Below, in pieces: positions 2,838-56,546 of a stretch of DNA of 56,546 nt. Numbering within the stretch: position 1 is the first letter of the stretch; every line of letters starts with the position of its first letter. Under the pieces are notes generated by a model. The model worked only from the letters and a program-made list of their open reading frames with translations, did not search any database and was not told the DNA's origin. The stretch comes from a virus: the IMG/VR virus record IMGVR_UViG_3300025030_000128, positions 1 to 56,546 of that record. One strand, written 5' to 3'. The translations under genes and the position numbers were made by a program.

Positions 2838-2863
2838 AAATCCTCCTTGCTGGCTACCGGAAT

Positions 2864-3159: not shown

Positions 3160-3173
3160 TTTACCTCCTGTCT

Positions 3174-3232: not shown

Positions 3233-3237
3233 TAAAA

Positions 3238-3456: not shown

Positions 3457-3471
3457 GTAGCACCTCCGAGA

Positions 3472-3517
3472 TTTATGGGCATCAGTGCTTCACTCACCCG
3501 TGACCATTGTCGTTAAA
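3472..3517 (-). repeat. Truncated attC-like site S6
   Basis: The first half on the minus strand (TTTAAC, then GACAATGGTCACGGGTGAG) is nearly the same as the first half of S5, but no matching second half or GTTAT box follows. It sits directly after the resolvase gene and looks like a half-site left by recombination or deletion. Confidence 0.45.
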
Positions 3518-4456: not shown

Positions 4457-4468
4457 TACACGGCCCCC

Positions 4469-4801: not shown

Positions 4802-4823
4802 TGTTGTTCCTCCTTGGTTGGGG

Positions 4824-5807: not shown

Positions 5808-5817
5808 GGTTTTCTCC

Positions 5818-6753
5818 CTAGAAGAGTTGGTCGGCCAGTTGGCCGTGAAAGTGGTTCTCTGTTTTTGAACAGGCGCATCCACCGATCAGGTCAGCCAGTC
5901 GATAGCTGACGTGCGGGCCGTCAAAGGTAAACCCCCTCTTGCCCTTGTTGCAGTTGTCGTTCAGTGCCATCCAGTCGAGCTTGTCCGGATGGGTGAAGGA
6001 CATCTTGTTGGCGACCAGGTATTCGGTGATGGATCCCGGGCGGCCGTCTCTTTTTCTTGACCGCCTCCAGAGTCCTTCGATCTTCCGGTTGTAGGGTTCG
6101 GCCACCACTTCCACCCGCACGATGCGGCCGAGCTCGTCTTCTGAGAGATCGTCCAGTTCGTGCGGCTTCATGTTTGGGCAGAAGATGCAGCTCGACTTGG
6201 GCGGGACCGGCAAACTGGCTTCGACAATGCGGGCTTTGCACTCTTCCCGATCCCATCCCCAGTCCTGTAGAGGGTAGACGTTGTCGCAGCCCTGAGTGGC
6301 ATGGGCTTTGTCGCCGGCCCGCAGTTGGCGGTATTCCTCCCCCGCCTCGAAGCCGATCGCTTTGATGATGTGACCGCGAATGTTTTCCTTCTCCCACCGT
6401 CTCTGCGGCTGAATCTTCCACTTGTCCGTGCAGCTGCCGCGATTGAACGTGGCCCCCGGAAGAGTGGCGTTCATCACCATGTTCCCTTCGATAGTCGTGT
6501 AGGGGCTATACTTCGGGATGTATTTGACCACGGTGACCGGCGGGAAGTGATGCTTGGCCAAGTACTCTTGTATGATTGGAAGGTAATTGTAGGTTGACTG
6601 CTTCTCTGCCCCGACGTCCGCGAAGAGAATGAAATCCGGGCGGATCCCCCTGGCTACGTAGCCGGCAATGATAGCGGTCGAGTCAACCCCGAGCCCATAG
6701 GCCAGTCCGAGGATCGACTTCTGATTGGTCTCAAACAGGTCAATCTGGCTCAT
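5818..6753 (-). CDS. PP-loop ATPase, PAPS-reductase/DndC-like
   Basis: The 311-residue protein starts at 6753 after AGGAG. LGLAYGLGVDSTAIIAG near the N-terminus is a variant of the SGGxDS PP-loop of the adenine nucleotide alpha hydrolase superfamily, and DFILFADVGAEKQSTYNYL follows as in PAPS-reductase-like proteins. The C-terminal half has a CIFCPNMKP cysteine pair that could bind metal. In phages this family is widespread; proposed roles include nucleotide or DNA modification, and there is no evidence that it reduces sulfate. It overlaps the preceding Cys-rich gene by 14 bases. Confidence 0.75.
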   Translation of the reverse strand: MSQIDLFETNQKSILGLAYGLGVDSTAIIAGYVARGIRPDFILFADVGAEKQSTYNYLPIIQEYLAKHHFPPVTVVKYIPKYSPYTTIEGNMVMNATLPGATFNRGSCTDKWKIQPQRRWEKENIRGHIIKAIGFEAGEEYRQLRAGDKAHATQGCDNVYPLQDWGWDREECKARIVEASLPVPPKSSCIFCPNMKPHELDDLSEDELGRIVRVEVVAEPYNRKIEGLWRRSRKRDGRPGSITEYLVANKMSFTHPDKLDWMALNDNCNKGKRGFTFDGPHVSYRLADLIGGCACSKTENHFHGQLADQLF

Positions 6754-6898
6754 CTCTTGGCTCCTGGAGGGTGGGGTAGGAAAGACGTTGTGGCTGGTAG
6801 GCGGGCTTGAGTGGTGGGGCTGTCCTGGTATCGCAGTCACCGCAGCATTCCTGCTGGTTGCACATGCGAGCCCCAGTCTTGGGGCAGATACGGCACAT
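6740..6898 (-). CDS. Cys-rich mini-protein, 52 aa
   Basis: The ATG at 6898 has AAAGGA upstream. Six cysteines lie in the first 25 residues (MCRICPKTGARMCNQQECC, then GDC), probably a zinc-binding knuckle, followed by a proline-rich tail. Its end overlaps the start of the PP-loop gene, so it may act with that protein. Function unknown. Confidence 0.65.
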   Translation of the reverse strand: MCRICPKTGARMCNQQECCGDCDTRTAPPLKPAYQPQRLSYPTLQEPRDEPD

Positions 6899-6917
6899 GA
6901 TGTATTCCTTTCTTCGG

Positions 6918-7235
6918 CTATTTGTCCAGCGGGATCTCTCCTGTGTAGAGATTGTGGTACTCCTTCTCCAGATCGACCGCGGCTGCATTCAAGACGTCAA
7001 TGAAGACATCCTGGTTGAGAACTAGGTACTTTTTGGAGAGCGTCTGCATCTGTGTATGGATCTCCGCCTTGGTGTCGGCCTGATAGCTGGCGAGCTGCTG
7101 AACGCAGACATCACCTCGGCTGTTGGCGGTTTCGAGGACTCCTCTGTGAATGCGCATAGAAATGCCTGCGCCGACGACGAAGCCAACGAACAGGCCGACA
7201 ATGAAGGCTGTGGATAGGTGTTTTGATACGATCAT
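6918..7235 (-). CDS. Single-pass membrane protein, 105 aa
   Basis: The ATG at 7235 follows GGAGG and overlaps the upstream stop (ATGA). After a short basic start, residues 7-28 (STAFIVGLFVGFVVGAGI) form a clear membrane helix, and the rest is a helical soluble domain. The layout resembles a type II membrane protein such as an inner-membrane spanin or an inhibitor, but nothing identifies it. Confidence 0.7.
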   Translation of the reverse strand: MIVSKHLSTAFIVGLFVGFVVGAGISMRIHRGVLETANSRGDVCVQQLASYQADTKAEIHTQMQTLSKKYLVLNQDVFIDVLNAAAVDLEKEYHNLYTGEIPLDK

Positions 7236-7465
7236 TTGTCCTCCATCTTGGCGCGGATAGCGGCGGCAATACATTTATGGTCTGTGCAATAAACCGGCCC
7301 TTCGTCTGCCCCAATGTCAGCAATCACCGCCGCTTCCCTAAGTCCTCCAAGACGACCGGCGTTGAAGCAGTTCCTACGCACCTCCGTTTGATGCCCGTCG
7401 AGAAGCAGGGCGTATTCGTTACTATAGTGTAGTTTTCCGTACTCTTTGGCGAACTTTTCAAACAT
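7232..7465 (-). CDS. Unknown protein, 77 aa, paralogue of the 7975 gene
   Basis: Two adjacent ATGs (7468, 7465) follow GGAGG; 7465 gives the better spacing. FNAGRLGGLREAA and the C-terminal AIRAKMEDK match FTAGRLEGLREAA and AIRAKMEE of the 7975-8271 protein, so the two genes are duplicates. The family is common in phage early regions and has no known function. Confidence 0.7.
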   Translation of the reverse strand: MFEKFAKEYGKLHYSNEYALLLDGHQTEVRRNCFNAGRLGGLREAAVIADIGADEGPVYCTDHKCIAAAIRAKMEDK

Positions 7466-7507
7466 CATCTCTACCTCCCGCGCCATAACCATGACGCTGC
7501 AATTAGG

Positions 7508-7558
7508 TTAATTTTCTTCGTCCTTCCATCCAAGAAAGCGGGCGAGGAGTTCGGTCAT
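7508..7558 (-). CDS. Possible 16-aa peptide
   Basis: An ATG with GGGAG eight bases upstream opens a 17-codon frame (MTELLARFLGWKDEEN). It fills part of an otherwise empty 138-base gap between two genes. The evidence is only the ribosome site and amphipathic composition. Confidence 0.25.
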   Translation of the reverse strand: MTELLARFLGWKDEEN

Positions 7559-7603
7559 TTCTTCGGCTCCCAATGTGTCGGGTTAATTGGTAGACCGATC
7601 ATT

Positions 7604-7972
7604 TCATTGAGGCAGTCGCAGCACGGCGAGTTCGGCGCGGAGCGCCTTTAACTCTTCCCGGTAGTTTTCAACCGCCAGCAATTCGCTGGCAAGGTTTTCA
7701 TACTCCTCGGTCATGGCGGCGAGAGCGGATTCGGCGGCTTCGGCACGAGCAAGGCAATTCGCGGCGGTCGTTGACATTCTCGCGTTATCATCTTCCAGCC
7801 GCTCAATCTCCTCCTGCGCCGCGCTGAGTTGCGCGGTGAGGGATTCGGTGAGTTTAGCGGCGAAGCCCTTCAGGTATGAGGAAGACGATCCTCCGATTAG
7901 TACCTCGGGGATGTATTGGTGAATCCCAGATTCGTATACAGCCTTCATAATCTGTTCTTCCGTTGGCCTCAT
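7604..7972 (-). CDS. Coiled-coil protein, 122 aa
   Basis: The ATG at 7972 follows GGAGG. From about residue 45 the protein is a long heptad-like helix (LSAAQEEIERLEDDNARM onward) to the end, so it is probably an oligomer. The N-terminus, with PTEEQIMKAVYESG, may be a small folded domain. It has the look of a phage protein of unknown function. Confidence 0.7.
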   Translation of the reverse strand: MRPTEEQIMKAVYESGIHQYIPEVLIGGSSSSYLKGFAAKLTESLTAQLSAAQEEIERLEDDNARMSTTAANCLARAEAAESALAAMTEEYENLASELLAVENYREELKALRAELAVLRLPQ

Positions 7973-7974
7973 CT

Positions 7975-8271
7975 CTATTCCTCCATCTTGGCGCGGATAG
8001 CGGTTTTATGTATCGCAACGACATCGACCTCTTGCCCGATGTAGGGCGTCAGAGCGAACGATACCAATTCTAGTCGTCCTTCTCCACCAACCTTTTTCTG
8101 TACCGGCTGAGAGAATATCCTGATGGCGTTATTTGGTTCTCCTTCTGCCGCCTCCCTGAGTCCTTCGAGACGGCCAGCGGTGAAGGCGCGCTTCGCAATC
8201 TCCCGGCCTCCCGGCCACGGTCGGTTGTCTGACTCGGGGCGGGAAAATGGCCACCACTCGGCGAATGTCAT
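7975..8271 (-). CDS. Unknown protein, 98 aa, paralogue of the 7232 gene
   Basis: The ATG at 8271 follows CAGGAG and overlaps the TGA of the broken gene upstream, a sign of old translational coupling. It shares two motifs with the 7232-7465 protein (GRLxGLREAA and AIRAKME). Function unknown. Confidence 0.7.
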   Translation of the reverse strand: MTFAEWWPFSRPESDNRPWPGGREIAKRAFTAGRLEGLREAAEGEPNNAIRIFSQPVQKKVGGEGRLELVSFALTPYIGQEVDVVAIHKTAIRAKMEE

Positions 8272-8387
8272 GGCTTGTTCTCCTGTTCTTTAAGCGTCCA
8301 GACGCGGACGAAGCGGCCGTGGTTGCTCTTCCAGGTTGAGGCTTGGGTACGAAGCACGATCCATTCGTCCTTGGAAAAGATTGCTCT
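8268..8387 (-). pseudogene. C-terminal remnant of a gene cut by the HNH endonuclease insertion
   Basis: Directly after the HNH stop, the same frame continues for 39 codons, from KDEWIVLRTQASTWKSNHGR to ENKP and a TGA. It has strongly coding-like codon use but no start codon. Its TGA overlaps the ATG of the next gene, as intact neighbours here do. The simplest reading is that the HNH gene replaced the front of this gene. No other copy of the missing part is visible. Confidence 0.6.
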
Positions 8388-8957
8388 TTAATAAAGGGCT
8401 GAATAAATGACAGCACGTTCATCGCTATAGCCGCGTTTTATTCTGTCATAGATTCTGTCTCTCTTAATTCCGTAATGTTCCGCCCATTGAGTTATATTTT
8501 TTGTTACGCCCTCAATTGTAATTAAGTGGCATTGTCGGCTATTGTTACCTTGTTCTTTTTTTGTAGACCACTTAACATTTTCCGGCTCATAGTTTCCGTC
8601 GTTTTTAATGCGGTCAACTGAATGATCTCTTGATGGACGCTGACCAATATCTTTTTTGAATGCTAGGAAATCGTTCTTCCATTTATCGCAAACGACAATT
8701 CCCCTTCCGCCATAATTATTATAGTGCACGTGATTCTTATTATAGCAACGCTCTAACATTTTCGACCATAAACGGAAAAGGTTTGTCTTTGTTTCGTTGT
8801 GCTTTACCCTGTTACAACCACAGGATTTTGAAAGCCCGCGGGTAAGCGAGCTTTTGTATATATCTTTGACGACACCGCAATCGCATTTGCACGTAAGGTG
8901 ATGTTTCTTTGTGCTAATCCCGATGACTAAGAGTTTTCCATATTTATTTCCTATCAT
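8388..8957 (-). CDS. HNH homing-type endonuclease
   Basis: This 189-residue protein (ATG at 8957 after GGGAG) has an N-terminal CKCDCG...CGC cysteine segment, then YNNYGGRGIVVCDKW and DHSVDRIKNDGNYEPENVKW, the HNH/NUMOD-type pattern of phage homing endonucleases, and a C-terminal helix-turn-helix-like end (ITQWAEHYGIKRDRIYDRIK). It is clearly more AT-rich than the genes around it, a sign of recent arrival. Its start lies within the end of the upstream gene and its end abuts a gene remnant. Confidence 0.85.
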   Translation of the reverse strand: MIGNKYGKLLVIGISTKKHHLTCKCDCGVVKDIYKSSLTRGLSKSCGCNRVKHNETKTNLFRLWSKMLERCYNKNHVHYNNYGGRGIVVCDKWKNDFLAFKKDIGQRPSRDHSVDRIKNDGNYEPENVKWSTKKEQGNNSRQCHLITIEGVTKNITQWAEHYGIKRDRIYDRIKRGYSDERAVIYSALY

Positions 8958-9306
8958 CTTCTTGCTCCCGGAGAAGAAGTTCGAGGCGGGCGAGGCTATT
9001 CCAGACCTCATGAGAGAGATGTAGGAGCCCACTGTCCTGAGCATGGGTCTCTCCCTTACAGATGTCCAGCTCGTGTCTCATTTGGGCGTCTGCGTAGCGG
9101 AGCTGCCCGTTGGGGATGGTGTGCCAGGTATCCCATCCGTGCTTCGTGGCGCCGAACTCGGAGACTCTGGCGACTTGCTCCAGGGCTCTAGGAAAGTAGC
9201 GCAGGACAGAGTGGATGTGGGCCTTGCCGTTGTCATGTTTGGCGCCAGGGTCGACAAGGAAAGATTTCCATGGATACAGTTTGGCGTCCTCTTCTTGGTC
9301 GCTCAT
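8944..9306 (-). CDS. dATP/dGTP diphosphohydrolase-like protein (DUF5664 type)
   Basis: The 120-residue sequence has the family signature in order: KHDNGKAHIHSVLRYFPRAL, VSEFGATKHGW, a central RYADAQMRHELDICKGE, and DSGLLHLSHEVWNSLARLEL. The acidic and His residues fit an all-alpha NTP pyrophosphohydrolase active site, as in MazG-type enzymes. The likely role is trimming dNTP pools during infection. Its start overlaps the stop of the previous gene (ATGA), and its last codons overlap the HNH start. Confidence 0.75.
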   Translation of the reverse strand: MSDQEEDAKLYPWKSFLVDPGAKHDNGKAHIHSVLRYFPRALEQVARVSEFGATKHGWDTWHTIPNGQLRYADAQMRHELDICKGETHAQDSGLLHLSHEVWNSLARLELLLREQEDDRK

Positions 9307-9572
9307 TTGTTCCTCGCTGCAAGATAGTGGTAGGAGGGCTCAGAAGGCTTCCAGATGCGGCCGTCCGCTCCCTTGTAGTAAGGACGCGGGCAGCCCTTGC
9401 GATTGCCTCCACAACAGTCCTGGGCGTACTGCTTGGGGTTGAAGAGATGACGGAGGCCTTCGGCGTGGACGATCTGGGTGAGGGTGGAATGATTGGTGCC
9501 AATAACGAGGGCGGTCGCCCTGATGCTCATGCCAAGGCCGGCATAATATGTGATCTCTTCTTTGAGGGTCAT
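9303..9572 (-). CDS. Small helix-turn-helix protein, 89 aa
   Basis: The ATG at 9572 overlaps the upstream stop. MSIRATALVIGTNHSTLTQI has the spacing of a helix-turn-helix, so the protein may bind DNA. The C-terminal half has CCGGNRKGC and an aromatic tail. It could be a regulator of the early block; the sequence does not say of which genes. Confidence 0.6.
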   Translation of the reverse strand: MTLKEEITYYAGLGMSIRATALVIGTNHSTLTQIVHAEGLRHLFNPKQYAQDCCGGNRKGCPRPYYKGADGRIWKPSEPSYHYLAARNK

Positions 9573-9772
9573 ATTGGCAACGTTTCGATCTCGTCGGCGG
9601 CCCAACGAAGGTAGTCCGCGTACTCTTCCTTCGACCGCCACCTGGTCATATTGTCGAGAGAAACGACGAGGAAGCGGCGGCTGCCTGACATTTCGACCGT
9701 GACGGCGAGAGACTGGTAAGTTTCAGCTTTGTTGCCGCGGTCTGCGGTGAAGCGTTGCTCGGTGAGTTTCAT
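9569..9772 (-). CDS. Unknown protein, 67 aa
   Basis: It starts MKLTEQRFTADRGNKAETY and ends in a helical EYADYLRWAADEIETLPI. The start lies just 3' of attC-like site S8, whose sequence supplies its leader; no strong ribosome site is visible. Its stop overlaps the next start. No family recognised. Confidence 0.65.
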   Translation of the reverse strand: MKLTEQRFTADRGNKAETYQSLAVTVEMSGSRRFLVVSLDNMTRWRSKEEYADYLRWAADEIETLPI

Positions 9773-9822
9773 GGTTTCAACTTTCTCATGGAGCGGACAA
9801 GCCGCTCATGCTTTAGTTATCC
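9773..9822 (-). repeat. attC-like site S8 (cluster B)
   Basis: On the minus strand: GATAAC, spacer, GCAT-GAGCGG, loop CTTGT, CCGCTC, extrahelical C, ATGA, and a closing GTTGAAAC. The bulged base falls in the same place relative to the stem as in S2, S5 and S10. Its R' matches the one of S1. Confidence 0.55.
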
Positions 9823-9824
9823 TT

Positions 9825-10196
9825 CTATTTGCCTCGGAACATATCACCCACAATTTTAAACGCTTGTTCCAGCCGCTGCATTGCTTGTTCGGCCTGTAAT
9901 CGCTTGCGTTCAGCCTTGGCTACCCTTCGTTTTTCCACATTTTCAGGCTTCCAGTATGTGGCGTGGCGTTTATCCTGGATTGCCTTTTTCTTGGTTGCAA
10001 TAGATTCCTGAATCGTTGCCTCTTTTTCATAATCAACCATCCGCCGCGCCTGGTTGCCCTCTTCACAAACAGTGCAAAGAGCATAGTCCAGTTGGTTGTG
10101 ATATGTCGGCACCACGCAGCAATCCTCACAGACAGGTTCACCGCAAATATGACAGGTGAAATCGGTTTTATTCTCTTCGCAAACGTGGCAAATCAT
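9825..10196 (-). CDS. Zinc-finger protein with coiled-coil tail, 123 aa (cassette gene)
   Basis: The ATG at 10196 follows GGGAGAAG. The first 60 residues carry four CxxC pairs (CHVC, CHIC, CEDC, CTVC), a B-box-like or double zinc ribbon, and the rest is a long basic helix. It sits between attC-like sites S9 and S8. Probably binds nucleic acid or a protein partner; function unknown. Confidence 0.7.
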   Translation of the reverse strand: MICHVCEENKTDFTCHICGEPVCEDCCVVPTYHNQLDYALCTVCEEGNQARRMVDYEKEATIQESIATKKKAIQDKRHATYWKPENVEKRRVAKAERKRLQAEQAMQRLEQAFKIVGDMFRGK

Positions 10197-10226
10197 GAAA
10201 ACTTCTCCCTCGATTGCCACCCCGAA

Positions 10227-10280
10227 GGATAACAATCGGCTGGACGGGTCAAGCCCGTCATCCTCTAGCCGTTATGGCGC
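10227..10280 (-). repeat. attC-like site S9b
   Basis: On the minus strand: CATAAC, spacer, GACGGG, loop CTTGA, CCCGTC, extrahelical C, AGCC, spacer GATT, GTTATC. R'' and R' pair over 5 bp. A second hairpin directly on its 5' side (10271-10320, TGGCGCA/TGCGCCA after CTTTAAC) may be a separate or composite site. Confidence 0.6.
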
Positions 10281-10311
10281 AAGGCCAGCATCGACCCTGC
10301 GCCACGTTCAG

Positions 10312-10530
10312 TTAAAGCAAAATACCCCAATCTTCGGACAGCATATCGAGATTGTTCGGGTTCCACGGAAACAGTTTTCCGGCAACGTCGCTCATGTAAA
10401 TGTACGAGTGTCCCATTTTGCTGTTTTCGTCGCAAACCTGAAGAGCTAACCACATTCCCTTGCCATTCCAGCCATCACGACTTACTTTGCTTCCGAGCTT
10501 GAGTGCTTCCAACGCTTGTCCGAAATTCAT
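10312..10530 (-). CDS. DUF2829 protein, Tad2-like anti-Thoeris candidate (cassette gene)
   Basis: The 72-residue protein (ATG at 10530 after AAAGGAG) matches the DUF2829 pattern end to end: NFGQALEALKLGSKVSRDGW, NGKGMWL, then a YIYM strand, FPWNPNNLDMLSEDWGIL. Members of this family include Tad2, which binds and sequesters the signalling nucleotide of type I Thoeris defence. That function is established for some members and only inferred here. The gene lies between attC-like sites S10 and S9, so it sits in a cassette-like unit. It is near the short end of the family's length. Confidence 0.75.
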   Translation of the reverse strand: MNFGQALEALKLGSKVSRDGWNGKGMWLALQVCDENSKMGHSYIYMSDVAGKLFPWNPNNLDMLSEDWGILL

Positions 10531-10560
10531 ACTGTTCTCCTTTGTAGTTTGGTTGCCCAT

Positions 10561-10623
10561 GCGCCATAACCAGCGCATAGACACCGGCTCCCGCTGGTCG
10601 CGGGTCATGCTTGTCGTTATCCC
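10561..10623 (-). repeat. attC-like site S10
   Basis: On the minus strand: GATAAC; spacer GACAA; GCAT-GAC; inner hairpin CCGC/GCGG; GTC, extrahelical T, ATGC; spacer GCTG; GTTATG. Spacers and bulge are identical to S5 while both stem segments have changed in a paired way, so folding seems to be conserved. Confidence 0.75.
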
Positions 10624-11051
10624 TGATGGTGTAAGTAGCGCCCAATCTTAGAGTGCTTCACTTGCCGGGCTGCCTGAATCCGGCCAGAATCAATATCCTT
10701 CCCTGCATATTGCCCAGCGGCTAACAGGTCTAGCGCGGCCAGCACATCACCGCATTCGCGCTCCAACAGCTCCCTATTAGTTGGGCCTCCGTCAGGGTGC
10801 CGGGACTCGTAGCCATGCCTGAGAATTTTCCCGACAGCCTGAATTACCTCGCCGCATTCTTCCGCCAATAGTGCAAGTCGTTCGACCTCCGCAAGGGAAA
10901 GGAACGGGATAACCAGTGAATCGACCGGAGGTTTATCCTTGTCGCACTGGCACTGCATGGTTGATGTATCTACCGTCGATTTACACATTTCGTTCTCCCG
11001 GTCATTCACAGACCCGTTAAATAGATCCCTGGCCCCATTAAATCTCCGCAT
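10617..11051 (-). CDS. MazG-like nucleotide pyrophosphohydrolase
   Basis: The core LALLAEECGEVIQAVGKI with a later ELLERECGDVLAALDLL gives the EExxE...ExxD metal-binding pattern of MazG-type enzymes, which hydrolyse NTPs or dNTPs to monophosphates. ATG at 11051 follows CAGGAG (144 residues); an ATG at 10988 after GGGAG would give 123 residues and is an equal choice. A short Cys pair near residue 34 is unexplained. The stop overlaps attC-like site S10, and a long structured noncoding region lies upstream. Confidence 0.75.
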   Translation of the reverse strand: MRRFNGARDLFNGSVNDRENEMCKSTVDTSTMQCQCDKDKPPVDSLVIPFLSLAEVERLALLAEECGEVIQAVGKILRHGYESRHPDGGPTNRELLERECGDVLAALDLLAAGQYAGKDIDSGRIQAARQVKHSKIGRYLHHQG

Positions 11052-11504
11052 GGTGTCTCCTGACCTTCCGAGACCTGCGCAGAGAAACTTAGACCGGCGG
11101 CATATAGACTGATTGCTGGCCGGGAGACTCACATACCCTGTATCGACCGCCCGTATCGTGGGCTAAACGCTCCGCCTTCCCCTTGTGGTGTTGGGAAGAA
11201 CCATTACAGCCATGCGTATGATAGGTCGTTTGCTCCGGGGCTAAGAGCGGGTAAGCGGTCTTTGGTGCGACTTCCTTGCCAGCCTTCCGTCCTCAGTTTG
11301 GGACATTTGGTGAGGCCCACTGGCGAGGCCAAGAGCGGGCAAAGCAAAACCCGCAAAACCACTTCGCCTTGGACGGGCAGAGAAGGGATTTACGGGTGCG
11401 GGTTTTGCTGTGTTCAGTGTTTGGAAGTTTACAACAGATGCCCGTCCAAAGGCAAGGACATGTTACTTAGGGCTGAAAAAAAAGTCAAACTTTATCTTTG
11501 GCGA
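11052..11504 (-). ncRNA. Structured noncoding region with a predicted pseudoknot
   Basis: No convincing gene fits these approximately 450 bases on either strand. Two perfect or near-perfect inverted repeats interlock: 11344-11355 pairs with 11397-11408 (12 bp, GCAAAACCCGCA), and 11366-11379 pairs with 11439-11453 (14 bp with one bulge). The order A-B-A'-B' makes an H-type pseudoknot. Nearby is an imperfect direct repeat GGCYAAGAGCGGGYAA at 11239-11254 and 11327-11342. A run of eight T (minus strand) occurs near 11478. A structured RNA on the minus strand is the best guess; the direction is not proven. Confidence 0.45.
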
Positions 11505-11765
11505 TCAGAGATGACAGAGAATGTTGCGGACGTTTTTGCGGGATTTGCGAACGAAGGAAGGGCTACAACCTTGGCAATCCCACTGCCAGGCTCCTTCTTT
11601 CAGCAAGGCAACGAGCGTGTCCTTGACAAGCCTGTAGGTGCCTTCTTCTTCGGCGGCAACATCGATGCAGCCGGTGGCGATTACCTTGCGGGCGTTTTCT
11701 CTGGCCCGCTCGAAAGATTTTTTCAGTAGTTCGTCAACCTTGTCGAGAAATTCTTGGTCAGTCAT
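11505..11765 (-). CDS. Unknown helical protein, 86 aa
   Basis: The ATG at 11765 follows AGGAG and overlaps the end of the previous gene. The protein opens with a helical EFLDKVDELLKKSFERAREN and ends with a DCQGC pair and a basic tail. The family is not recognised. It precedes the structured noncoding region. Confidence 0.65.
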   Translation of the reverse strand: MTDQEFLDKVDELLKKSFERARENARKVIATGCIDVAAEEEGTYRLVKDTLVALLKEGAWQWDCQGCSPSFVRKSRKNVRNILCHL

Positions 11766-12093
11766 TGTTTTTCTCCTCTGGTCGTTTGATTTCGCCAACT
11801 GTGCTGCCGTTGAAGGTGTAGGCGACGATCGGCGGAACAACGGTGGTGCCGAGCAGATCCTTCACTTCCCGGGCCGAGATCGACACGCCGCGGTCGGCGT
11901 ACTTGTCGACCAGCACTGGATCGTTCGAGACGAAGGCGACCGCCTTGTCGTTCTGATACAAGGCCGCTATCACCTTCTTGTCAGTCGAGAGCATGTAGTC
12001 AACCACACTCTTTCCCAATAGGTCGTTGGCCGGGATTGGGTTCCAGTGCGGCCGGTTGTCGATGATCTCCAGCTGTTTGATTTCGACTCTCAT
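11758..12093 (-). CDS. Unknown protein, 111 aa
   Basis: The ATG at 12093 has AGGAA upstream. The sequence alternates strands and helices (KKVIAALYQNDKAVAFVSND, VSISAREVKDLLG) and looks like a folded alpha/beta domain. No family recognised. It overlaps the next gene by 8 bases. Confidence 0.7.
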   Translation of the reverse strand: MRVEIKQLEIIDNRPHWNPIPANDLLGKSVVDYMLSTDKKVIAALYQNDKAVAFVSNDPVLVDKYADRGVSISAREVKDLLGTTVVPPIVAYTFNGSTVGEIKRPEEKNND

Positions 12094-12105
12094 CTTTTCC
12101 TTTCT

Positions 12106-12576
12106 TTAGGTGGCCAGATACTTGACCGCATCAACAAATGACATCTGATCACGATCGATCAGTGTATCAAGGGCTGAGAAGTAGCGGTTACAGGACCCAC
12201 ACCAGGCGATCCCCTTCTTGCTCATGAAGGTGAGCGACGGCCGCTTGTCGTCGTGGCACCAGGCGAAGGCTTTCCCGAAGCGGTCGAACTGAATCACCGC
12301 GGTCACAGGGACGGCCCGGGCCGCCTCGATCATGGCGTCGGTAATCTGGTTGGTCTGTTGGGGTACAGAAAACTCTCCGCCTTCGTTCTTAGTCAGGTAG
12401 GCGATCTCGTCGAGGATTTCTTTGGCGAAGTGGAGAGCAACCGGAGAACCGTCGAGGATCAGGGCGCCGAGGTAGGGGGTGAGGAATCTCTTTCTCATGC
12501 GACTAGCGGCGAGCTTGTTGATCTCGAACTCCTTGGCCTTGCGGAAGGTAAGCGCGGGGTCTTTATTGGCGAACAT
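12106..12576 (-). CDS. Stand-alone CHC2-type primase zinc-finger protein
   Basis: In the 156-residue protein the C-terminal half reads FAWCHDDKRPSL, then GIAWCGSCNRYF and MSFVDAVKYL. This is the C-H-C-C pattern of the DnaG/T7 primase zinc-binding domain, with the usual PS after the first half and FxDAV after the second. No TOPRIM or primase catalytic domain follows in this gene or nearby. It may recognise primer sites in concert with a partner, or load the host primase. The N-terminal half is helical and unplaced. Confidence 0.7.
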   Translation of the reverse strand: MFANKDPALTFRKAKEFEINKLAASRMRKRFLTPYLGALILDGSPVALHFAKEILDEIAYLTKNEGGEFSVPQQTNQITDAMIEAARAVPVTAVIQFDRFGKAFAWCHDDKRPSLTFMSKKGIAWCGSCNRYFSALDTLIDRDQMSFVDAVKYLAT

Positions 12577-12584
12577 GGATTCTC

Positions 12585-24865: not shown

Positions 24866-25143
24866 CTATTTTAAGTTTCCTGCAAAAACTAAAACAGCTC
24901 TTCGCCTGGCTTCCGTGGAACAAGCGGACGAACGCCTGGTCGATCCCGGCGAACGCGATTGTCGCCGGCCGCATCATTACCATGGAGCAGCTGCTGTCGT
25001 GGGGCGTACCTGAGTCGGAGCTGTGGAATCTGCACAAGGCCTTTGTGGGAAAGCGGCACACCCTGAGAGCGATGAAGATCGACGGGGAAGACTGCTACCG
25101 GGTGATGAGGATTCGGTACTACGGCGAGCGGAGGATCAAGTGA
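24862..25143 (+). CDS. Unknown basic protein, 93 aa
   Basis: ATG at 24862 after AAGGAGG, overlapping the upstream stop. MTILSFLQKLKQLFAWLPWN is an amphipathic or membrane-prone front; the rest is basic and may bind nucleic acid. No family recognised. Confidence 0.65.
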   Translation: MTILSFLQKLKQLFAWLPWNKRTNAWSIPANAIVAGRIITMEQLLSWGVPESELWNLHKAFVGKRHTLRAMKIDGEDCYRVMRIRYYGERRIK

Positions 25144-25565
25144 GCGACAAGCGAGCGGTACTCAACGTCGCGCGGGCGATCAATGCTCTGCCGGAGCAAA
25201 GGCTCCTCACGGTCTTCACTCCGGTAGAGGGGCTTGGAGGCAGCACGAAGCGCATTCTGACTACCATCAGCCGGGAAACAGCGGTCAACATCATCAGCGA
25301 TCTTGGCGGCGTGGACGTCAGTGATGACGACTGCTGCAGGTCGGGATTCGGGATCTGCTTCCCTCTGATGAGCGGGGGCGAAATCCGCTGGTTCTTCGTC
25401 GAGACACGGCAAGACTTCTGCCCGTTCTGCCAGGGCGCCAAGACGGTCAGAAACGAAGCCGACTTCGAGATCGTCAGTGAGGAATGTTGGGTCTGCGATG
25501 GCGTCGGCCGCATCCTCACAGCACCTCTTCCCCAGAGGCCGAAGAAGACGGAGCTGGTCGCATGA
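25140..25565 (+). CDS. Zinc-finger protein, DnaJ-type CxxCxG pairs, 141 aa
   Basis: A GTG start overlaps the upstream stop. CPFCQG and CWVCDGVGR near the C-terminus form two CxxCxG units as in the DnaJ zinc finger. The first 90 residues include ISRETAVNIISDLGGVDVSD. It lies just before and overlaps the large terminase gene. Function unknown. Confidence 0.65.
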   Translation: MSDKRAVLNVARAINALPEQRLLTVFTPVEGLGGSTKRILTTISRETAVNIISDLGGVDVSDDDCCRSGFGICFPLMSGGEIRWFFVETRQDFCPFCQGAKTVRNEADFEIVSEECWVCDGVGRILTAPLPQRPKKTELVA

Positions 25566-48840: not shown

Positions 48841-51800
48841 ATGGGCATGTTCGATGATATTCCCGATGAGCCTACCGTCAGCTCTTCGCAACCCGCATCC
48901 TCTCAAACGATGTCGAGCGGGCTCTTCGATGACATCCCCGACGTTCCTGAAGTTGAAGATGCGCCAACGTCTGCAGACGGTTCGACCATGGGCGATTTCT
49001 TCCGCGACCTTCCCAATGCCGCTATCCGTACCGCGCAAAGTATTCCTGTTGGCGTCCGTAAGACAGCGGGCGCCATTGGCGTCTTAGGGGCTGACCTTGG
49101 CCTTCGTCCTGGTGATTCCGGAGGCGAAGACGGCCCCGTCGTAATGACCCCCGAAGAATCCCGTCAAGAGCTTCGCCAGGCTGACGCCGAGTCGCAACAA
49201 CTGCAGAGGGATTATCCGACCAAGACAGAGCTGGGCGGGTTGGTGGCTGGTGCTGGCGAGTCTATCGCCTATATGGCGCCGATGCTGCCCGCAGGACCCG
49301 GAGCGGCCGTGGCCGGCATGGCGGGACGAACCGCGATCGATACCTACGGCGAAGCCCGAGAGCTGGAAGGGAAGTCGGTTCAAAACGCTGGGATCGAGGC
49401 GGTCGTTTCCGGGACGGCCGAAGGCGCGCTGGAAATGGCGCCGACCGCCATGTTGTTCGATCTCTTCGGCAAGTCGGCCAATAAGTCTTTGGCCGGCAAG
49501 CTGGTCAAGTACTTTGCCGCCGAACAGGTTACCGAAGTTCCGACCACCTTAATTCAAAACGCCGCCGACATCTACACCTCGAACGATCCCCAGGCAGAAG
49601 AGAAGGCGATGCAGTATGCCCTCGACTACCGGGATTCGATTCTCGGAGGCTTTGCCGAGACTCCGGACATTACGGTCGATGGCCGCAAGTACAACGCCTA
49701 CAACGATATGGTCCAGACGATGAAGCAGACCGCAGTTCAGGCGGGCCTCATGGGAGCCCCTGCGGCCGGTCTGAGGGGCGTTCATAAGCTGGCCATAGGA
49801 GAGGCAGGGCGGGCGCAGGAGCGGGTTGACAAAGAGGCCTACGACGCTCTCAGTAAGCCTGACCGCAAGCAGTACGACGCTGCCGTGGAAGAGCAAGCGG
49901 CTGGCCGCAGTCTGAACCGGATGTTTGGCCGCTCGAACGAAATTGAACGCCGCGACATCGACCTCCTCAATCCCGAGGCAGAGTTCGACGTCGAGGCCTA
50001 CCTTAGAGGAGAGCAAAATGATCTGTCAGAATCCGAACTGCCGCTGTCTGGGAACGAGACCGGGACGCCTCTGCAAGAAGTGCGGACACAAACAGCCGGC
50101 GTAGACTCGCCTGTTGTTCCTCCCGTTCCTATTCCTCCGGTGGAATTAGTAGCACCTCAGACTTCCCCAATGCCCCTACAGCCGGCGATCGTACCCTGGC
50201 AGATGGCAGTGCCGCCCCCCGCAGAAGAGATTGCCCCAGAAGTCTTGCCCACTCAGACTCAACCCCTACAGGAGGAACCTACCAATGCGATGCCCACGGT
50301 GTCAGGAGCTAGTGAAGCGGGGCAGTCGATGCCCGAATTGCGGGAAGGTGGTTCGACCATAGGCGAAGCGACCGACGCCGAAGGAAACGAAACGGTTTTC
50401 GTTACACAACCCGGACCGCGCCTTCGTCCTGCCACTGAAGAAGAGATTGAAGAGTTTGCGGAATTGATGCGCGAAGCTGGCGTCAAGGAAGGGTCCGACT
50501 CTTGGAATAAGATGCTTGCCAGCAAGACTAACGGCATCAAGATCCGAGCGATCGACCCTCTCAGTGGCTACCAGGGCCGCTCCGAGTTTGGGCTGGCTCT
50601 GCCGAAGATCTGGGAGAGGCATGTTGAAGGGGTCCCAGTTACCATCACTGAGTTCGACATTGTTAATCTCGGCGGACTAAACGAGAATATCGGAGAGCCG
50701 GAAGCGAATAAGGTTCTGACGGACATCTACAAGATCTTCTCCGATACTCTCGTCTCTTTCGGGATCAAGGACGCGCAGCTCTTTCGCAATGGCGGCGACG
50801 AGGGCCAGGCGGTCTCGACCGCGCCGAAAGAACTTCAGGTGCAGGCCGTAGCCGAGGCCAAGAAGAGAATCGACGCCTACGTCAAAGAGAAAGGTCTGGA
50901 GAAGACTTTTGGCAAGACTGCCAAAGGCCAACCGAAGAACACGACGGAAATTGGGACCGGGATTTACCACGCAACCGAGTCATTCTCCGACTGGCCGAAC
51001 TTGCAAGACGCAATCGATGCTGTTAAACTTGGGGTGAACGAAGCAAAGCGAGCAGAGAAAGGGCTAGACGATGGGCGAACAAGCATTGAAAGACCTGGGA
51101 CTGTTCGAGCTGAAGGACAACCCGCAAGCACTGAAGGCGGAGATGTCCAAGATGCGCCAGGAGCTGGAGTCCCGCCGGCTCAAAACTCCTCGACCAACCT
51201 CTACTCAGGTATCCCCCTCCCGGAACTGAAGAAGCTCGCCGGCAATCTCAAAGCGGCCTATCCTCATCTGCTCAACCTCGGCTCCCAAGTCTATCAGGCG
51301 GGCCACACTACCCTCGACCAATTCAAGAAGGAAATGCAGCGTGTTTTGGGCGACCTCTACCGGTCGTTCAAGGATGCGATGATCCGCGTCTTCAATGACG
51401 TACGTGCCCGCCTGAAGGACGAGCGTGGCGTTGTCGGCAGGGACATCAATGAGCTTCGGAAAGACGAGGCCTCCGCCGATCAGGTCTCTCCCAAGGACAT
51501 GACCGACGATGATGTCCAAGTTGAAGACACGAGAGAAGCAAGAGTGCTTTTCGTTGGACTAGAATTAAGTAAAGCGAAGCGCCAAATTGAAAACGATCAA
51601 CTTTGGGAATCAACGGTCGATAAGCTTCGTTATCTTTATAGGGTTGTTCCGGACAAAGACCTTCGGGAAAAAATAACGGAGATGGCAAATCTTTATATTA
51701 AGGCTTTGGCCCCCGGTAAAACTTTCGGCTCAATCGAAGACAAGGAGCGTGAGGCGGCCAAACAGAGAATTGCAGAGAGGAAGGCAAAAGACGGGGCAAC

Positions 51801-54800
51801 CGAGTCTGTCGACCGCATAATTAAGATACCGAAAAAAAATGAATCTCCTGAGCTGGCAAAGAAGGACGAAGCGGACGCTGACCAAGTTACCCCCAAAAAG
51901 ATGACCGACGAAGAGCGCAAGGTCATGCACGAACGTCTGTTCGACGAGCAGTACCGTGCCCGCCGGGAAGAGAACGAAGATCAGATTGAGGAGACGGTCG
52001 ACTTTACCGACGAGGCGCCGATCAAAGACTCCCGCGACTACGAGGACAACTTCTTCCCTTCTGGGAAAGAGTTCTTCCCTTCTCGTTCTTCTGGGGTTCA
52101 AGACAAAGCGAAGCAGGCTCAGGTGCGGGAGCTGAAAGATTCGCAGGGCATGCAGATGGCGCAGGACGATGATGCCAAGCTCCGCAAGATCCGGCCGATG
52201 ACGATGATGGAATCAGAAGTCGTCCGCTCGAACGATGCCCTTGCCTCCGCAGGCCAGAATATTGAGAAGCGCGAAAGGGCGGCCGCCAAGAACAACGCGA
52301 CCGCCGATGCGTTTCAAGAGAAGTTCTGGCAGGCCCAGAAAGACGCCCTCACCTACGCCGCCAAGGAGCTTGCCCGCAATCCGCTCATGACCACTGCCGA
52401 GAAGGGCCGGCAGACGCTGATGCAGATTATCGGCAATGACCTGGCTCAGTTGGCCGAGACGTTCTACGCCGCCGACCTCATTGCCTTCATCGAGAAGAGC
52501 AAGAACGGGGGTCAGCTCGCTACCTTAACCGGCTACCCGGACGCCCTCACAGAGCTTCTGGACTACCAGGAAAGGTATTACGCGAGCGATGTCAACCAGA
52601 CGTCCGAGGAAGCGACCGACGAAGAGGCCGAGAACGCACCCCGCTCTATCGCCGACCGTAAAGCCGTGAATGCTGAGTATGAAGCGGAGCGGAAAGAGGA
52701 AGTACAAGAGGAAGATGTCGATACCGTTTCCAAGGAGGAGCTATCCGCTCACAGAGAAAAGCGGGATGCAGAAGAAAAGGCGACCGCGAAGAAGGAGGGC
52801 AAGCAGAAAAGAGCTGAACGTTCTTATGCTCGTCAACGGTTCGATAAGGCGGGCCTTGCTCTCTTCAAAAAGAAAGACACTGCCAACCAGCAGTTAATCT
52901 CTGAGAACTGGAAGGGCTTTTTCCTGGGGGTCGCCGATCATATTTTCAGCGGTAAGGTCAATGAGCTCAAGGATGTCGATCATGCGCTGATTGCTCACAA
53001 GATGGTCGGGACCAAGAAGGTGACGAAGGAGTTCCGCGATCTCTACATGCACGGCGACCGCAGCAAGGCGATTGAAATCGTCAAGGAGATGATGGAGCAC
53101 TCGATCCTTCTTCTCCCGTTTGAAAAGGAAATGACGTCGGATCTCTACCGCGGCGAAGTAGAGTTGCCGGCCCGGGTGCAGCCGAAAGAGAAGTTCGCTC
53201 CGGTCTATACCAAGCACGACGCCTTTATCGACAGTCACTGGGATGCCCTCGACAAGATCCTGAAGGACATTGTCCTCTCCTCTGGAAAGAACCAGGCCGC
53301 ACCAAAGCACCGTCAGGAATTGCCAGGCGGGCGTCCTGGGGGTCAGGTCTATGTCTGGAGTGTCATGCGGAAAGATTCGCCGCTGAATCTGAGCGAAGCG
53401 ATGAACCGGCTGTTCGACAAAACAGACTACGACGGCGCAACCCGCCAGAGTATCTTCGACGAGATGCTGCACCGCTCCGGGCTTACCGCCCTCAAAGGAT
53501 CCACCTACCCCGTCAGTGAGTTCGCCGAATCGAAGTATGCCGAAGGCGCCATGCAGCCGGTCGAACTGAATCCCGTTGACCAGACCGAAGAGACCCGGCT
53601 GCGCGAGGTTGCCGGCGTCAAGGTCAATGAAGATGGAAAGTTGTTGAACTATGACTTTGGCAACGACATTATCGACATGATCCGCGACGTTGTCTACTCC
53701 GACCTGGGGAACCAGATTGCCGAGGAGCGGGGCTTCCCTTCGAGGGATGCCTACGTCAAACATTTGGCGCAGAGATTCAACACTGGTTGGCCGAAGGTGA
53801 AGAACCACAAGGAGTCGGACGCGATCAAGAAGAAGCGTGGTCAGGCCCGGGAACTCTTTTACAAAGAAGACTTGCCACTGATCAAGGCTGCCCGCATGGA
53901 GCGCCAGTATCGGGACAAGAATCTACTCGACAAGGATTTCTTCGAGAAGATCGTCGCCTTGGCTCCTGAAGCCGAGATGAGCGCAGAAGAGGCTTACGGT
54001 ATCTGGATCCGGAGAGGAAACTACGGGGCAATCTATGCTGAGGTCAGGCGGCGGGCGGAAGAGAATCTACAGGCCAAGGCCGACAAGAACTTTGCTGTCC
54101 TCAAGGAGCTGCGGAGCAAGGGCGCCCGGGCCATCGCCGAAAGTATCCTGACTCCGGCACAGCAGAAGCAGTACGGCTTGGCACGGTCGTCAATGGAGAA
54201 AGGAAAGCCCAACTTCAAAGGGATCGACACCAAGGACCGTTCAGCTCTGGTTGCTGCGTTTCAGATTGAGCAGGACTTGCTGGCCGGCCGCGAAGCTGAA
54301 CTGGCCGATCTCAAGCTCGATCACGGCTACCCGGTCCAGGCAGAAGACGTCTTTCAGCGGGACCTCGATAACATCTTTGCCGAAGAAGCCAACATCGGCG
54401 GACTCAAGGTCGGCAAGTTGCGCAACGAGGCGGCCCAGAAGTTCTACCAGGCGGTCGCCAAAGCGTTCGGCGCCGAGCTGGTTGTCGTCTCTGATCCTTT
54501 TTACCGCTCCCGCTACATCGGCTCTACCGAGGGACAGAGCAAGATCGTCGTCAATGTCCAGGAGAGCAAGCAGATTGAAAAGCTCTTCGCTCACGAGCTG
54601 TTTCACCATGTTGTCAACCGGGCTGATCCTGCTGCCTACAGGGAGTTTGTGCGGGCGGTGAAGCTTGTGGTCGGGCAAGAGAAGTGGGACGCCGCACAGG
54701 CCCGCCTGCTTCGCCCTGATAGCCTTTCCGAGATGAGCATGAGCGAGGCGGTCGACGAAGTGCTGCGCGATCCCAACAATGAAGCACTCGACGAAGAGAT

Positions 54801-56546
54801 GTTGGCCGATCTCTTTACTGAGGTCTTCACTCAGACCGAGTTTTACAACGAGCTGGCCAAGACCATCCCGGGACGGACGATGGCCCAGAAAATCATCGGC
54901 CGCCTGGTCAATCTGGTCGCAAAGGTGCTTAAGTCGATTGACGGCAAGGCACGGTGGGGCTACGAAGAGATTCAGTTGCTCGGTCCTTCCCAGATGTCTC
55001 AGATTCTTTCTCTGGTTTCCGATCTCATGTCGTCCCTCGGGGGGGAGAAATATTCAGGCGAGCGCTACTTCATGCGGCTGCCGGAGAAGGGCGAAGCGGT
55101 TCCTCTGCCGTTCACCGGCCCGCTCGGCATGCCCAAGTGGTCGGATATCTTTCCCAAGGGAAGTAAAGCCCATACCGTCATTCTCGACGCCATTGAGCAA
55201 CTGGCCAAAGATTCAAAGAAAGCCCTGGGCCGACTGGCCCGAGTGATCATGGCCGACGTCGGGGCCGAGAAGAAGGTGCAGGATCTTGCCTATGCCCTGG
55301 CCTACACCGCCAATCAAAAGCTCGACTTTCTGGAAGCGACCGTTCTTGACAAACACAAGGACACCTTCGACAACTGGGTGGGTGAACGGATTCAGAAGGT
55401 CAAGGCTCAGGCCGATGCCGATCTCAAGGCGGGCAAGCTGAAACAGAGCTCCTATGACAAGGTCATGGAGGCCAATAAGCGCGAGTTCTACTTCGAATCG
55501 ATGCACGACGACTTCGTCCGCCGGCCGGATCCGAACCGCATTCGTCAATACCCTCAGACGGTCCGGGACGCCTTCGCCGACTTTAAGGAAGTGGCTGACG
55601 ACATCCACGCCGAACTGGTCAAGCTCGATCCGGAGATGGCCGAGCAATACCGGGAAACCCATCAGCTGCAGACGATCCGCTGGCAGAGCAAGGGGGCCCT
55701 TCCCTTTGACGACAGCTTTGCCTCTCTCTCCGCGCGGTCGAAGCTGGAAGGCGACAAGAACTTTCTCAAGACCAAAGACACCGAGCGGACCACCGCCGAG
55801 ATCCGCAAGGACGGTTTCGAGTACGACACCATCCATCCGCTTCAGATGGCGCGCAACTACATCCATGACGCCTACAAGCTCATCGCTTTCCGGGAGATGA
55901 TTCAGAACGCCTACCAGACCGATGTTGAGTTTGAGGTCCTGGGGAAAGACGGCAAGCGCACCACCGTCAAGAAAGAAGCCGCCAAGATTTTCGCCAACAC
56001 CTTCCAGGCTAACAAAGAAGGCTATCGCCCGGTCAACGACAACGCCACTCAGATCCTCATGGGACTGAATGGCGGCATTGGTTACCGGGTCAAAACCGAC
56101 CAGGGCTATCTGCGGGAAGACGGCGTTGAGATGGTCTTCGGGACGGAACATGAAGCCAACCAGAAAGCGATCTCGCACCGTCAACTCTTTGGCGGAGCTG
56201 CAAAGGTCGAAGCACAGCGCGGACAGAAGAAGGTGACCGAAGGACCCGGTTTCGTTGTCACGCATATCGGCAAGAATGGCGAACGAATCACCGGGAAGCG
56301 CTTTGACGCCGCCGCTGCCGCCCGCGAATATGCCGACAGTCTTGGTGAAGGGTACTTGGTGGAAAAGGAACTGATCGGCGCCGACTCGGTGCCGGTGGCG
56401 CGCATCTACTTCCACCCCGACCTGGCCCGGATGATCAACCGATTGACGGCAACCAACCATCTTCTTTCAGGATCCACTGGGAAGTATTTCGGGCGGCCGT
56501 TCATGGCGGTAAAGAACTACATGACCAAAATGGTCTTTGCGGTCTC
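48841..56546 (+). CDS. Giant polyvalent virion protein (N-terminal 2569 residues; continues at 1..1852)
   Basis: One frame, with no stop for 9.5 kb across the contig join. Repeated FDDIPD motifs sit at residues 4-9 and 28-33; a helical region runs to about 400; a proline-rich linker spans 420-480. A GGDEF-like domain (600-765) has FDIVNLGGLNENIG and FRNGGDEGQAV. A low-GC insert (about 900-1005) is flanked by near repeats. Long charged helices follow. A zincin motif, AHELFHHVVN, has H1918, E1919 and H1922. This resembles phage polyvalent proteins that are packaged and ejected with the DNA. ATG at 48841 follows a GGAG site. Confidence 0.85.
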   Translation, partial: MGMFDDIPDEPTVSSSQPASSQTMSSGLFDDIPDVPEVEDAPTSADGSTMGDFFRDLPNAAIRTAQSIPVGVRKTAGAIGVLGADLGLRPGDSGGEDGPVVMTPEESRQELRQADAESQQLQRDYPTKTELGGLVAGAGESIAYMAPMLPAGPGAAVAGMAGRTAIDTYGEARELEGKSVQNAGIEAVVSGTAEGALEMAPTAMLFDLFGKSANKSLAGKLVKYFAAEQVTEVPTTLIQNAADIYTSNDPQAEEKAMQYALDYRDSILGGFAETPDITVDGRKYNAYNDMVQTMKQTAVQAGLMGAPAAGLRGVHKLAIGEAGRAQERVDKEAYDALSKPDRKQYDAAVEEQAAGRSLNRMFGRSNEIERRDIDLLNPEAEFDVEAYLRGEQNDLSESELPLSGNETGTPLQEVRTQTAGVDSPVVPPVPIPPVELVAPQTSPMPLQPAIVPWQMAVPPPAEEIAPEVLPTQTQPLQEEPTNAMPTVSGASEAGQSMPELREGGSTIGEATDAEGNETVFVTQPGPRLRPATEEEIEEFAELMREAGVKEGSDSWNKMLASKTNGIKIRAIDPLSGYQGRSEFGLALPKIWERHVEGVPVTITEFDIVNLGGLNENIGEPEANKVLTDIYKIFSDTLVSFGIKDAQLFRNGGDEGQAVSTAPKELQVQAVAEAKKRIDAYVKEKGLEKTFGKTAKGQPKNTTEIGTGIYHATESFSDWPNLQDAIDAVKLGVNEAKRAEKGLDDGRTSIERPGTVRAEGQPASTEGGDVQDAPGAGVPPAQNSSTNLYSGIPLPELKKLAGNLKAAYPHLLNLGSQVYQAGHTTLDQFKKEMQRVLGDLYRSFKDAMIRVFNDVRARLKDERGVVGRDINELRKDEASADQVSPKDMTDDDVQVEDTREARVLFVGLELSKAKRQIENDQLWESTVDKLRYLYRVVPDKDLREKITEMANLYIKALAPGKTFGSIEDKEREAAKQRIAERKAKDGATESVDRIIKIPKKNESPELAKKDEADADQVTPKKMTDEERKVMHERLFDEQYRARREENEDQIEETVDFTDEAPIKDSRDYEDNFFPSGKEFFPSRSSGVQDKAKQAQVRELKDSQGMQMAQDDDAKLRKIRPMTMMESEVVRSNDALASAGQNIEKRERAAAKNNATADAFQEKFWQAQKDALTYAAKELARNPLMTTAEKGRQTLMQIIGNDLAQLAETFYAADLIAFIEKSKNGGQLATLTGYPDALTELLDYQERYYASDVNQTSEEATDEEAENAPRSIADRKAVNAEYEAERKEEVQEEDVDTVSKEELSAHREKRDAEEKATAKKEGKQKRAERSYARQRFDKAGLALFKKKDTANQQLISENWKGFFLGVADHIFSGKVNELKDVDHALIAHKMVGTKKVTKEFRDLYMHGDRSKAIEIVKEMMEHSILLLPFEKEMTSDLYRGEVELPARVQPKEKFAPVYTKHDAFIDSHWDALDKILKDIVLSSGKNQAAPKHRQELPGGRPGGQVYVWSVMRKDSPLNLSEAMNRLFDKTDYDGATRQSIFDEMLHRSGLTALKGSTYPVSEFAESKYAEGAMQPVELNPVDQTEETRLREVAGVKVNEDGKLLNYDFGNDIIDMIRDVVYSDLGNQIAEERGFPSRDAYVKHLAQRFNTGWPKVKNHKESDAIKKKRGQARELFYKEDLPLIKAARMERQYRDKNLLDKDFFEKIVALAPEAEMSAEEAYGIWIRRGNYGAIYAEVRRRAEENLQAKADKNFAVLKELRSKGARAIAESILTPAQQKQYGLARSSMEKGKPNFKGIDTKDRSALVAAFQIEQDLLAGREAELADLKLDHGYPVQAEDVFQRDLDNIFAEEANIGGLKVGKLRNEAAQKFYQAVAKAFGAELVVVSDPFYRSRYIGSTEGQSKIVVNVQESKQIEKLFAHELFHHVVNRADPAAYREFVRAVKLVVGQEKWDAAQARLLRPDSLSEMSMSEAVDEVLRDPNNEALDEEMLADLFTEVFTQTEFYNELAKTIPGRTMAQKIIGRLVNLVAKVLKSIDGKARWGYEEIQLLGPSQMSQILSLVSDLMSSLGGEKYSGERYFMRLPEKGEAVPLPFTGPLGMPKWSDIFPKGSKAHTVILDAIEQLAKDSKKALGRLARVIMADVGAEKKVQDLAYALAYTANQKLDFLEATVLDKHKDTFDNWVGERIQKVKAQADADLKAGKLKQSSYDKVMEANKREFYFESMHDDFVRRPDPNRIRQYPQTVRDAFADFKEVADDIHAELVKLDPEMAEQYRETHQLQTIRWQSKGALPFDDSFASLSARSKLEGDKNFLKTKDTERTTAEIRKDGFEYDTIHPLQMARNYIHDAYKLIAFREMIQNAYQTDVEFEVLGKDGKRTTVKKEAAKIFANTFQANKEGYRPVNDNATQILMGLNGGIGYRVKTDQGYLREDGVEMVFGTEHEANQKAISHRQLFGGAAKVEAQRGQKKVTEGPGFVVTHIGKNGERITGKRFDAAAAAREYADSLGEGYLVEKELIGADSVPVARIYFHPDLARMINRLTATNHLLSGSTGKYFGRPFMAVKNYMTKMVFAV
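50018..50104 (+). CDS. Nested zinc-ribbon mini-gene 1, 28 aa
   Basis: In the +1-shifted frame of the giant gene, an ATG after AGGAGAGCAAA opens MICQNPNCRCLGTRPGRLCK and ends with KCGHKQPA. Cysteines and one His form a plausible zinc ribbon. The giant protein's own frame is low-complexity here. The ribosome site and the zinc pattern together argue for a real nested gene. Confidence 0.5.
   Translation: MICQNPNCRCLGTRPGRLCKKCGHKQPA
50285..50362 (+). CDS. Nested zinc-ribbon mini-gene 2, 25 aa
   Basis: Same shifted frame as the first. AGGAGG ten bases ahead of an ATG begins MRCPRCQELVKRGSRCPNCG and ends KVVRP, a compact CxxC...CxxCG zinc ribbon. It overlaps the proline-rich linker of the giant protein. 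Confidence 0.5.
   Translation: MRCPRCQELVKRGSRCPNCGKVVRP
51071..51229 (+). CDS. Nested mini-gene 3, 52 aa
   Basis: Third ORF in the same shifted frame, MGEQALKDLGLFELKDNPQA then KMRQELESRRLKTPRP. The composition is that of a real helical protein, while the giant frame here is a low-complexity linker after the GGDEF-like domain. The ribosome site (AAGGG) is weaker. Confidence 0.4.
   Translation: MGEQALKDLGLFELKDNPQALKAEMSKMRQELESRRLKTPRPTSTQVSPSRN
51460..51915 (+). repeat. Near-repeat pair flanking a low-GC insert in the giant gene
   Basis: KDEASADQVSPKDMTDDD (51460-51513) and KDEADADQVTPKKMTDEE (51862-51915) agree at 13 of 18 residues. Between them, 51520-51860 is clearly richer in A and T than its surroundings. 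This looks like a domain acquired by recombination between repeats, or a tandem duplication that has diverged. Confidence 0.5.

Follow-up and report, generated by a model that had tools for sequence, protein, structure and literature searches.

Small zinc-ribbon-like genes are probably nested in the +1 frame of a giant polyvalent-type phage gene

Can the bases that encode a disordered linker of a giant phage protein also encode small proteins of their own? This question is raised by the virus record IMGVR_UViG_3300025030_000128, the 56,546 bases of which were analyzed as a whole and are referred to below as the window. A giant open reading frame (ORF) occupies its late region, after the virion genes and with a portal-like protein upstream, and reaches no stop codon before the end of the record. 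An earlier note on this DNA had described two ORFs within 50018-50362, in the same shifted frame and with strong ribosome sites, as clean zinc ribbons overlapping the proline-rich linker of the large protein, and had left open whether they are true overlapping genes or fossils of genes joined by stop loss. Inspection of the locus confirmed the coordinates, the ribosome sites (AGGAG-6-ATG and AGGAGG-9-ATG) and the location in a Pro/Gln/Glu-rich linker. Besides the two ribbons, there is a third ORF in the same +1 frame, which the note had missed. The features of the locus are the following.

48841-56544, plus strand: giant phage ORF of polyvalent type, at least 2,568 aa, start ATG at 48841
49981-50460, plus strand: disordered Pro/Gln/Glu-rich linker, giant-protein residues 381-540, covering both ribbon genes
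50007-50011, plus strand: Shine-Dalgarno (SD) sequence AGGAG of putative nested ribbon gene 1, 6-nt spacer
50018-50104, plus strand: putative nested ribbon gene 1 (ORF1), 28 aa, +1 of the giant ORF, variant pattern CxxxxC.C...CxxC
50270-50275, plus strand: SD sequence AGGAGG of putative nested ribbon gene 2, 9-nt spacer
50285-50362, plus strand: putative nested ribbon gene 2 (ORF2), 25 aa, +1 of the giant ORF, CPRC...CPNC
51058-51063, plus strand: weaker SD-like sequence AAAGGG of ORF3, 7-nt spacer
51071-51229, plus strand: third nested ORF (ORF3), 52 aa, frame +1, charged and, by eye, helical-looking

As read from the DNA alone, ORF1 (MICQNPNCRCLGTRPGRLCKKCGHKQPA) and ORF2 (MRCPRCQELVKRGSRCPNCGKVVRP) lie wholly inside the giant ORF in a different frame, each with its own ATG and SD. 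The entire 25-aa product of ORF2 is a ribbon, with two CxxC knuckles at ribbon spacing, and it matched the Pfam family Zn_ribbon_3 (PF13248) with an E value of 2.1e-5 and 24.3 bits; since this score is below the curated cut-off of 27 bits, we refer to it as ribbon-like and do not assign it to the family. A Pfam profile search with ORF1 returned no match, and its cysteine pattern is a variant ribbon form. The description as a clean zinc ribbon is thus apt for ORF2 (CxxC...CxxC) and not for ORF1. The giant protein matched no Pfam family above the cut-off, and some of its regions match other giant proteins. Inspection by eye revealed a metallopeptidase-like HExxH motif (FAHELFHHV) at window positions 54541-54690 and, at 50640-50810, a stretch (...FRNGGDEGQ...) with the look of a divergent GGDEF-type domain, for which there was no Pfam match above the cut-off.

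Close relatives of the giant protein were found neither in viral contigs (two scans) nor in the phage collection. An alignment of terminases reached the contigs G001 (57% terminase identity) and G005 (48%). In the window, the start of the terminase ORF is overlapped by an ORF at 25023-25565; given the CxxC-rich stretch (FCPFCQ...CWVC) at the end of the latter, the terminase probably starts in fact later than 25484. Contig G005, which is also L103, has the gene order of the window, namely, a glycine-rich small gene, a gene of roughly 500 aa and the giant gene. At nt 1445 of this giant gene there is a +1 ribbon ORF with AAGGAG at 6 nt (MKQCPKCKHQMLKATKVCPRCKTKVA), the position of which corresponds to ORF2. 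A second +1 gene, of 66 aa, begins directly at TAAATG, and its product is similar to that of a small ORF standing alone in Aeromonas phage 1233 (46% over 37 aa, E = 2e-3). The giant gene of G001 (L087, complement 2035-12579) matches residues 784-923 of the window's giant protein and contains at its nt 3101-3436 a +1 ORF of 111 aa, with AAGGAGG at 8 nt, which underlies a Ser/Gly/Asp/Arg-rich linker and for which a homologue was not found.

A comparison with 3,314 shifted-frame ORFs extended these observations. The top matches of ORF2 were the nested ribbons of L115, L109, L104 and L103, at a weak level of similarity (E = 0.009-0.03), and a profile comparison with other nested ribbons was weak also (E = 0.036). 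ORF3, the composition score of which is positive, had its top match in an L115 nested ORF at nt 3302 (E = 5e-4). Residues 570-782 of the giant protein match residues 960-1179 of L109 and 934-1118 of L115, and the three loci are colinear: a ribbon gene precedes the domain of the 570-782 type, and an ORF3-like nested gene is found at the domain end. ORF3 belongs with the two ribbon ORFs. No clear nested homologue of ORF1 was found among the shifted-frame ORFs compared. A scan with the L115 and L109 ribbons gave close matches in five contigs, both queries included, all five in the +1 frame of a giant ORF and two of them without a strong SD by the pattern used. The sixth match was a stand-alone ribbon-membrane protein and was set aside as unrelated. 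The search for the window ribbons as stand-alone genes, which the earlier note had proposed, retrieved weak matches alone from sequenced phages (E = 0.7-10).

The relatives permit the nested frame to be examined for selection. L104 is a relative of L103 close enough for codon-position counts; its nested stretch, formed by the ribbon and the 66-aa gene, lies in the same kind of linker, and both ORFs are intact. Differences between L103 and L104 at giant codon positions 1/2/3 amounted to 12/6/3 in the nested stretch and 24/11/96 in the flanks (position 3 versus the rest, Fisher P = 3.5e-7). Read in the giant frame, the changes were 4 synonymous and 18 nonsynonymous in the nested stretch, as compared to 96 and 34 in the flanks; read in the nested frame, those within the nested stretch were 12 synonymous and 9 nonsynonymous. 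The changes thus fall at the wobble position of the nested frame and not at that of the giant frame, which is the codon-level check that had been suggested, and the bases are therefore constrained as nested genes. Over 16 homologous nested pairs, one of which is a poor local match, the differences at nested positions 1/2/3 totaled 264/201/357, with the minimum at the giant frame's wobble position. Pairwise sums for the five nested ribbons of L194-L198 were 37/20/53, and the pair L196/L197, taken alone, is too short to be decisive. These codon-position results are independent of the composition model and of the shuffling used below. The nested genes in the relatives are under purifying selection.

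This bears directly on the fossil reading, according to which the ribbons formerly stood as genes of their own between the domain genes, an upstream stop was lost, and the small frames are now unused. Their position in a linker and the hydrophilic shadow that they cast in the giant frame are as this reading would have it. However, the nested frame of the relatives is under purifying selection at present, with SD, start and stop intact, and a frame of 25-125 codons that had long been out of use would neither remain open nor retain its sequence through deep divergence. We consider fossils unlikely; of the earlier proposal, the unused frames are contradicted by the selection seen in the relatives, whereas joining by stop loss may survive as an origin. 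A pattern in which relatives keep the main frame but have interruptions in the shifted one, named in advance as evidence against true overlapping genes, is the opposite of what was seen: the nested ribbons of relatives are uninterrupted, and their conservation is in the nested frame.

A further alternative is that the cysteine patterns and SD sites arise by chance from the codon composition of the linker. Composition alone does make long +1 ORFs common, with a null mean of 76 SD-led ORFs of at least 25 aa in the 111 giant ORFs of the survey described below, and the codon usage of ribbon 2 (-0.153) is not distinctive. When synonymous codons of the window were shuffled with the giant protein sequence unchanged, two SD-led ribbon ORFs appeared in none of 2,000 whole-gene shuffles (one such ORF in 28) and in 1 of 20,000 shuffles restricted to the linker, in agreement with the earlier judgment that two ribbons are improbable by chance. 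The shuffles exclude chance for the ribbon pair and, given also that nested ribbons recur in relatives, we regard this explanation as very unlikely. The codon usage of ORF1 (0.156) is like that of real genes of the phage (median, 0.176) and exceeds the 95th percentile of open +1 stretches (0.024), as does that of ORF3 (0.063), which is gene-like. ORF1 is the least supported of the nested genes, its evidence being the shuffle test, the SD and codon usage.

The survey covered 111 nonredundant ORFs of at least 900 aa, drawn from 80 loci retrieved by a scan with a polyvalent-type domain and from other loci. Ribbon ORFs satisfying a strict SD and ATG pattern numbered 8, in 6 of the 111 giant ORFs (shuffle mean, 0.225; maximum, 2 in 200 shuffles). 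Nested ORFs with SD and ATG that are at least 40 aa long and protein-like in composition numbered 35, in 28 of the 111, versus 1.4 expected. This ratio is approximate, since the giant ORFs themselves served to train the composition model and the shuffling does not keep the codons of domains apart from those of linkers. Ordinary genes from the same loci, 402 kb in total, yielded no ORF under this filter, versus the 35 in 782 kb of giant ORFs. Over these 35, the giant frame has 11.7% hydrophobic residues, as compared to 27.9% overall. No convincing nested gene was found in the giant genes of G012 and ctwe8250, and the feature is therefore not universal.

The recurrence of such genes is illustrated by a nested protein of about 120-131 aa with conserved PIWNEI and ALPEV motifs, which is located in the +1 frame of annotated giant coding sequences of Klebsiella phage ZX1, Serratia phage Parlo, Pseudomonas phage Skulduggery, Vibrio phages D274 and 1.232.O, and Ruegeria phage 45A6.

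About 12000-12370 of each of L188-L193 (MW722080, MK618715, MF042361, OZ196038, KT820175, MG592596): PIWNEI/ALPEV nested gene

The family is annotated in none of these six sequenced isolates and a PHROGs profile search gave no match, so that current annotation misses it; other nested proteins had weak PHROGs matches or none. In viral contigs, 11 of 11 members are nested in the +1 frame. Among 17 members, mean identity is 38.7% in the nested frame versus 24.7% in the giant frame, and the nested-frame value is the higher in 135 of 136 pairs. A structure model is all-helical (pLDDT 76) and gave no fold match at an E value of 0.001. Bacterial genome assemblies yielded three matches, one of which is nested in a giant ORF. 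In the host-genome contig L211 (1492-2001), the giant frame hits a stop within the overlap and the nested frame is open. The member at 8001-8555 of L213 has no intact giant gene and adjoins bacterial genes; it is possibly a stand-alone form or a prophage remnant. Nested proteins of 99 aa (L151) and 64 aa (L168) had no match in the phage collection, so that the stand-alone origin expected for the 64-aa protein was not confirmed. A second nested family, of about 70 aa and ending in LH, was noted at nt 3083 of the L188 giant gene and nt 2390 of that of L189; the L188 copy has a subthreshold SHOCT match.

The layout of the nested ORFs also bears on +1 ribosomal frameshifting out of the giant frame, which would yield a truncated giant protein with a ribbon tail. 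In favor of such a mechanism, the frame is always +1 and some open sequence exists upstream of the ATG (in L194, 49 codons from stop to stop). Most such ribbons nevertheless have an SD and ATG that are well spaced (AAGGAG at 6 nt in L103, L104, L109 and L115), and in G005 the TAAATG at which the next gene begins is a layout for re-initiation, so that frameshifting appears quite implausible. Least probable of all is that internal initiation alone matters, for example by slowing giant-protein synthesis between domains, with functionless peptides: the sites do lie in linkers between domains, yet the nested amino acids, including the Cys ligands, are conserved beyond SD and start, and the 17 PIWNEI/ALPEV members average 39% identity in the nested frame versus 25% in the giant frame.

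Taken together, these data argue that the two ribbon ORFs and ORF3 are probably genuine small genes, which overlap a giant phage gene of polyvalent type in its +1 frame. The selection is observed in the relatives, and for the window we infer overlapping genes. Under this explanation, ribosomes would start independently at each internal SD and ATG on the mRNA of the giant gene and produce small zinc-ribbon proteins, and other ribosomes would read the same bases in the giant frame as a disordered linker between domains. The nested frame would carry the constraint, and the giant frame would mainly have to stay open and hydrophilic. Small zinc ribbons usually bind nucleic acid or protein. The ribbons of the window would be translated in the phage and bind zinc, and their role would most likely be the binding of nucleic acid or protein late in infection. 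As to the origin, a cluster of domain genes and small genes may have merged into one ORF by stop loss, with the small genes living on inside; such a merger would be feasible since an ordinary gene, when read out of frame, can be free of stops and encode a hydrophilic sequence.

We consider it reasonably probable, at a lower level of confidence, that many disordered linkers of giant polyvalent genes are out-of-frame shadows of selected small genes, namely, zinc ribbons and several helical families, and that domain-joining linkers arose as by-products when gene clusters merged and the small genes among them were retained. Small genes recur in giant-gene linkers of many phages, and standard annotation misses them. 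If general, the arrangement would offer an origin for the long disordered linkers of polyvalent proteins and would provide new phage proteins with candidate roles in defence, ejection or regulation. The nested genes are open to direct tests in cultured phages, Parlo and Skulduggery among them.

To our knowledge, most of the nested genes known from phages are isolated cases, Rz1 in Rz being an example. In phage lambda, Rz1 lies within Rz in the +1 frame, and for spanins it has been proposed that the outer gene may be lengthened through loss of its stop (PMC6139136). The window shares with Rz/Rz1, both products of which are used, complete nesting on the same strand, the +1 frame and an own start site. 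However, Rz/Rz1 is one pair of interacting lysis proteins with a short host gene, whereas the window has several unrelated small genes in linkers of one giant gene, without an evident lipoprotein or lysis role. Ribbon 2 has the two CxxC knuckles of Zn_ribbon_3 (PF13248) and differs from that family in scoring below its curated cut-off, in being a ribbon-only protein of 25 aa and in lying inside another gene. Like the genes of polyvalent proteins (Iyer et al. 2017, PMC5512222), the host gene in the window is giant, apparently multidomain and located in the late region, and domains of polyvalent type occur in relatives with nested genes (in Serratia phage Parlo, LPD39, SLT, helicase and methyltransferase). 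A term search of PMC5512222 retrieved nothing on overlapping genes, on linkers or on low complexity, with "nested" and "reading frame" in irrelevant uses only, and no report of nested genes in polyvalent proteins was found in the open-licence literature. Embedded genes as such are already known; nested small genes in polyvalent giant genes appear, from the literature covered, to be a new form of them.
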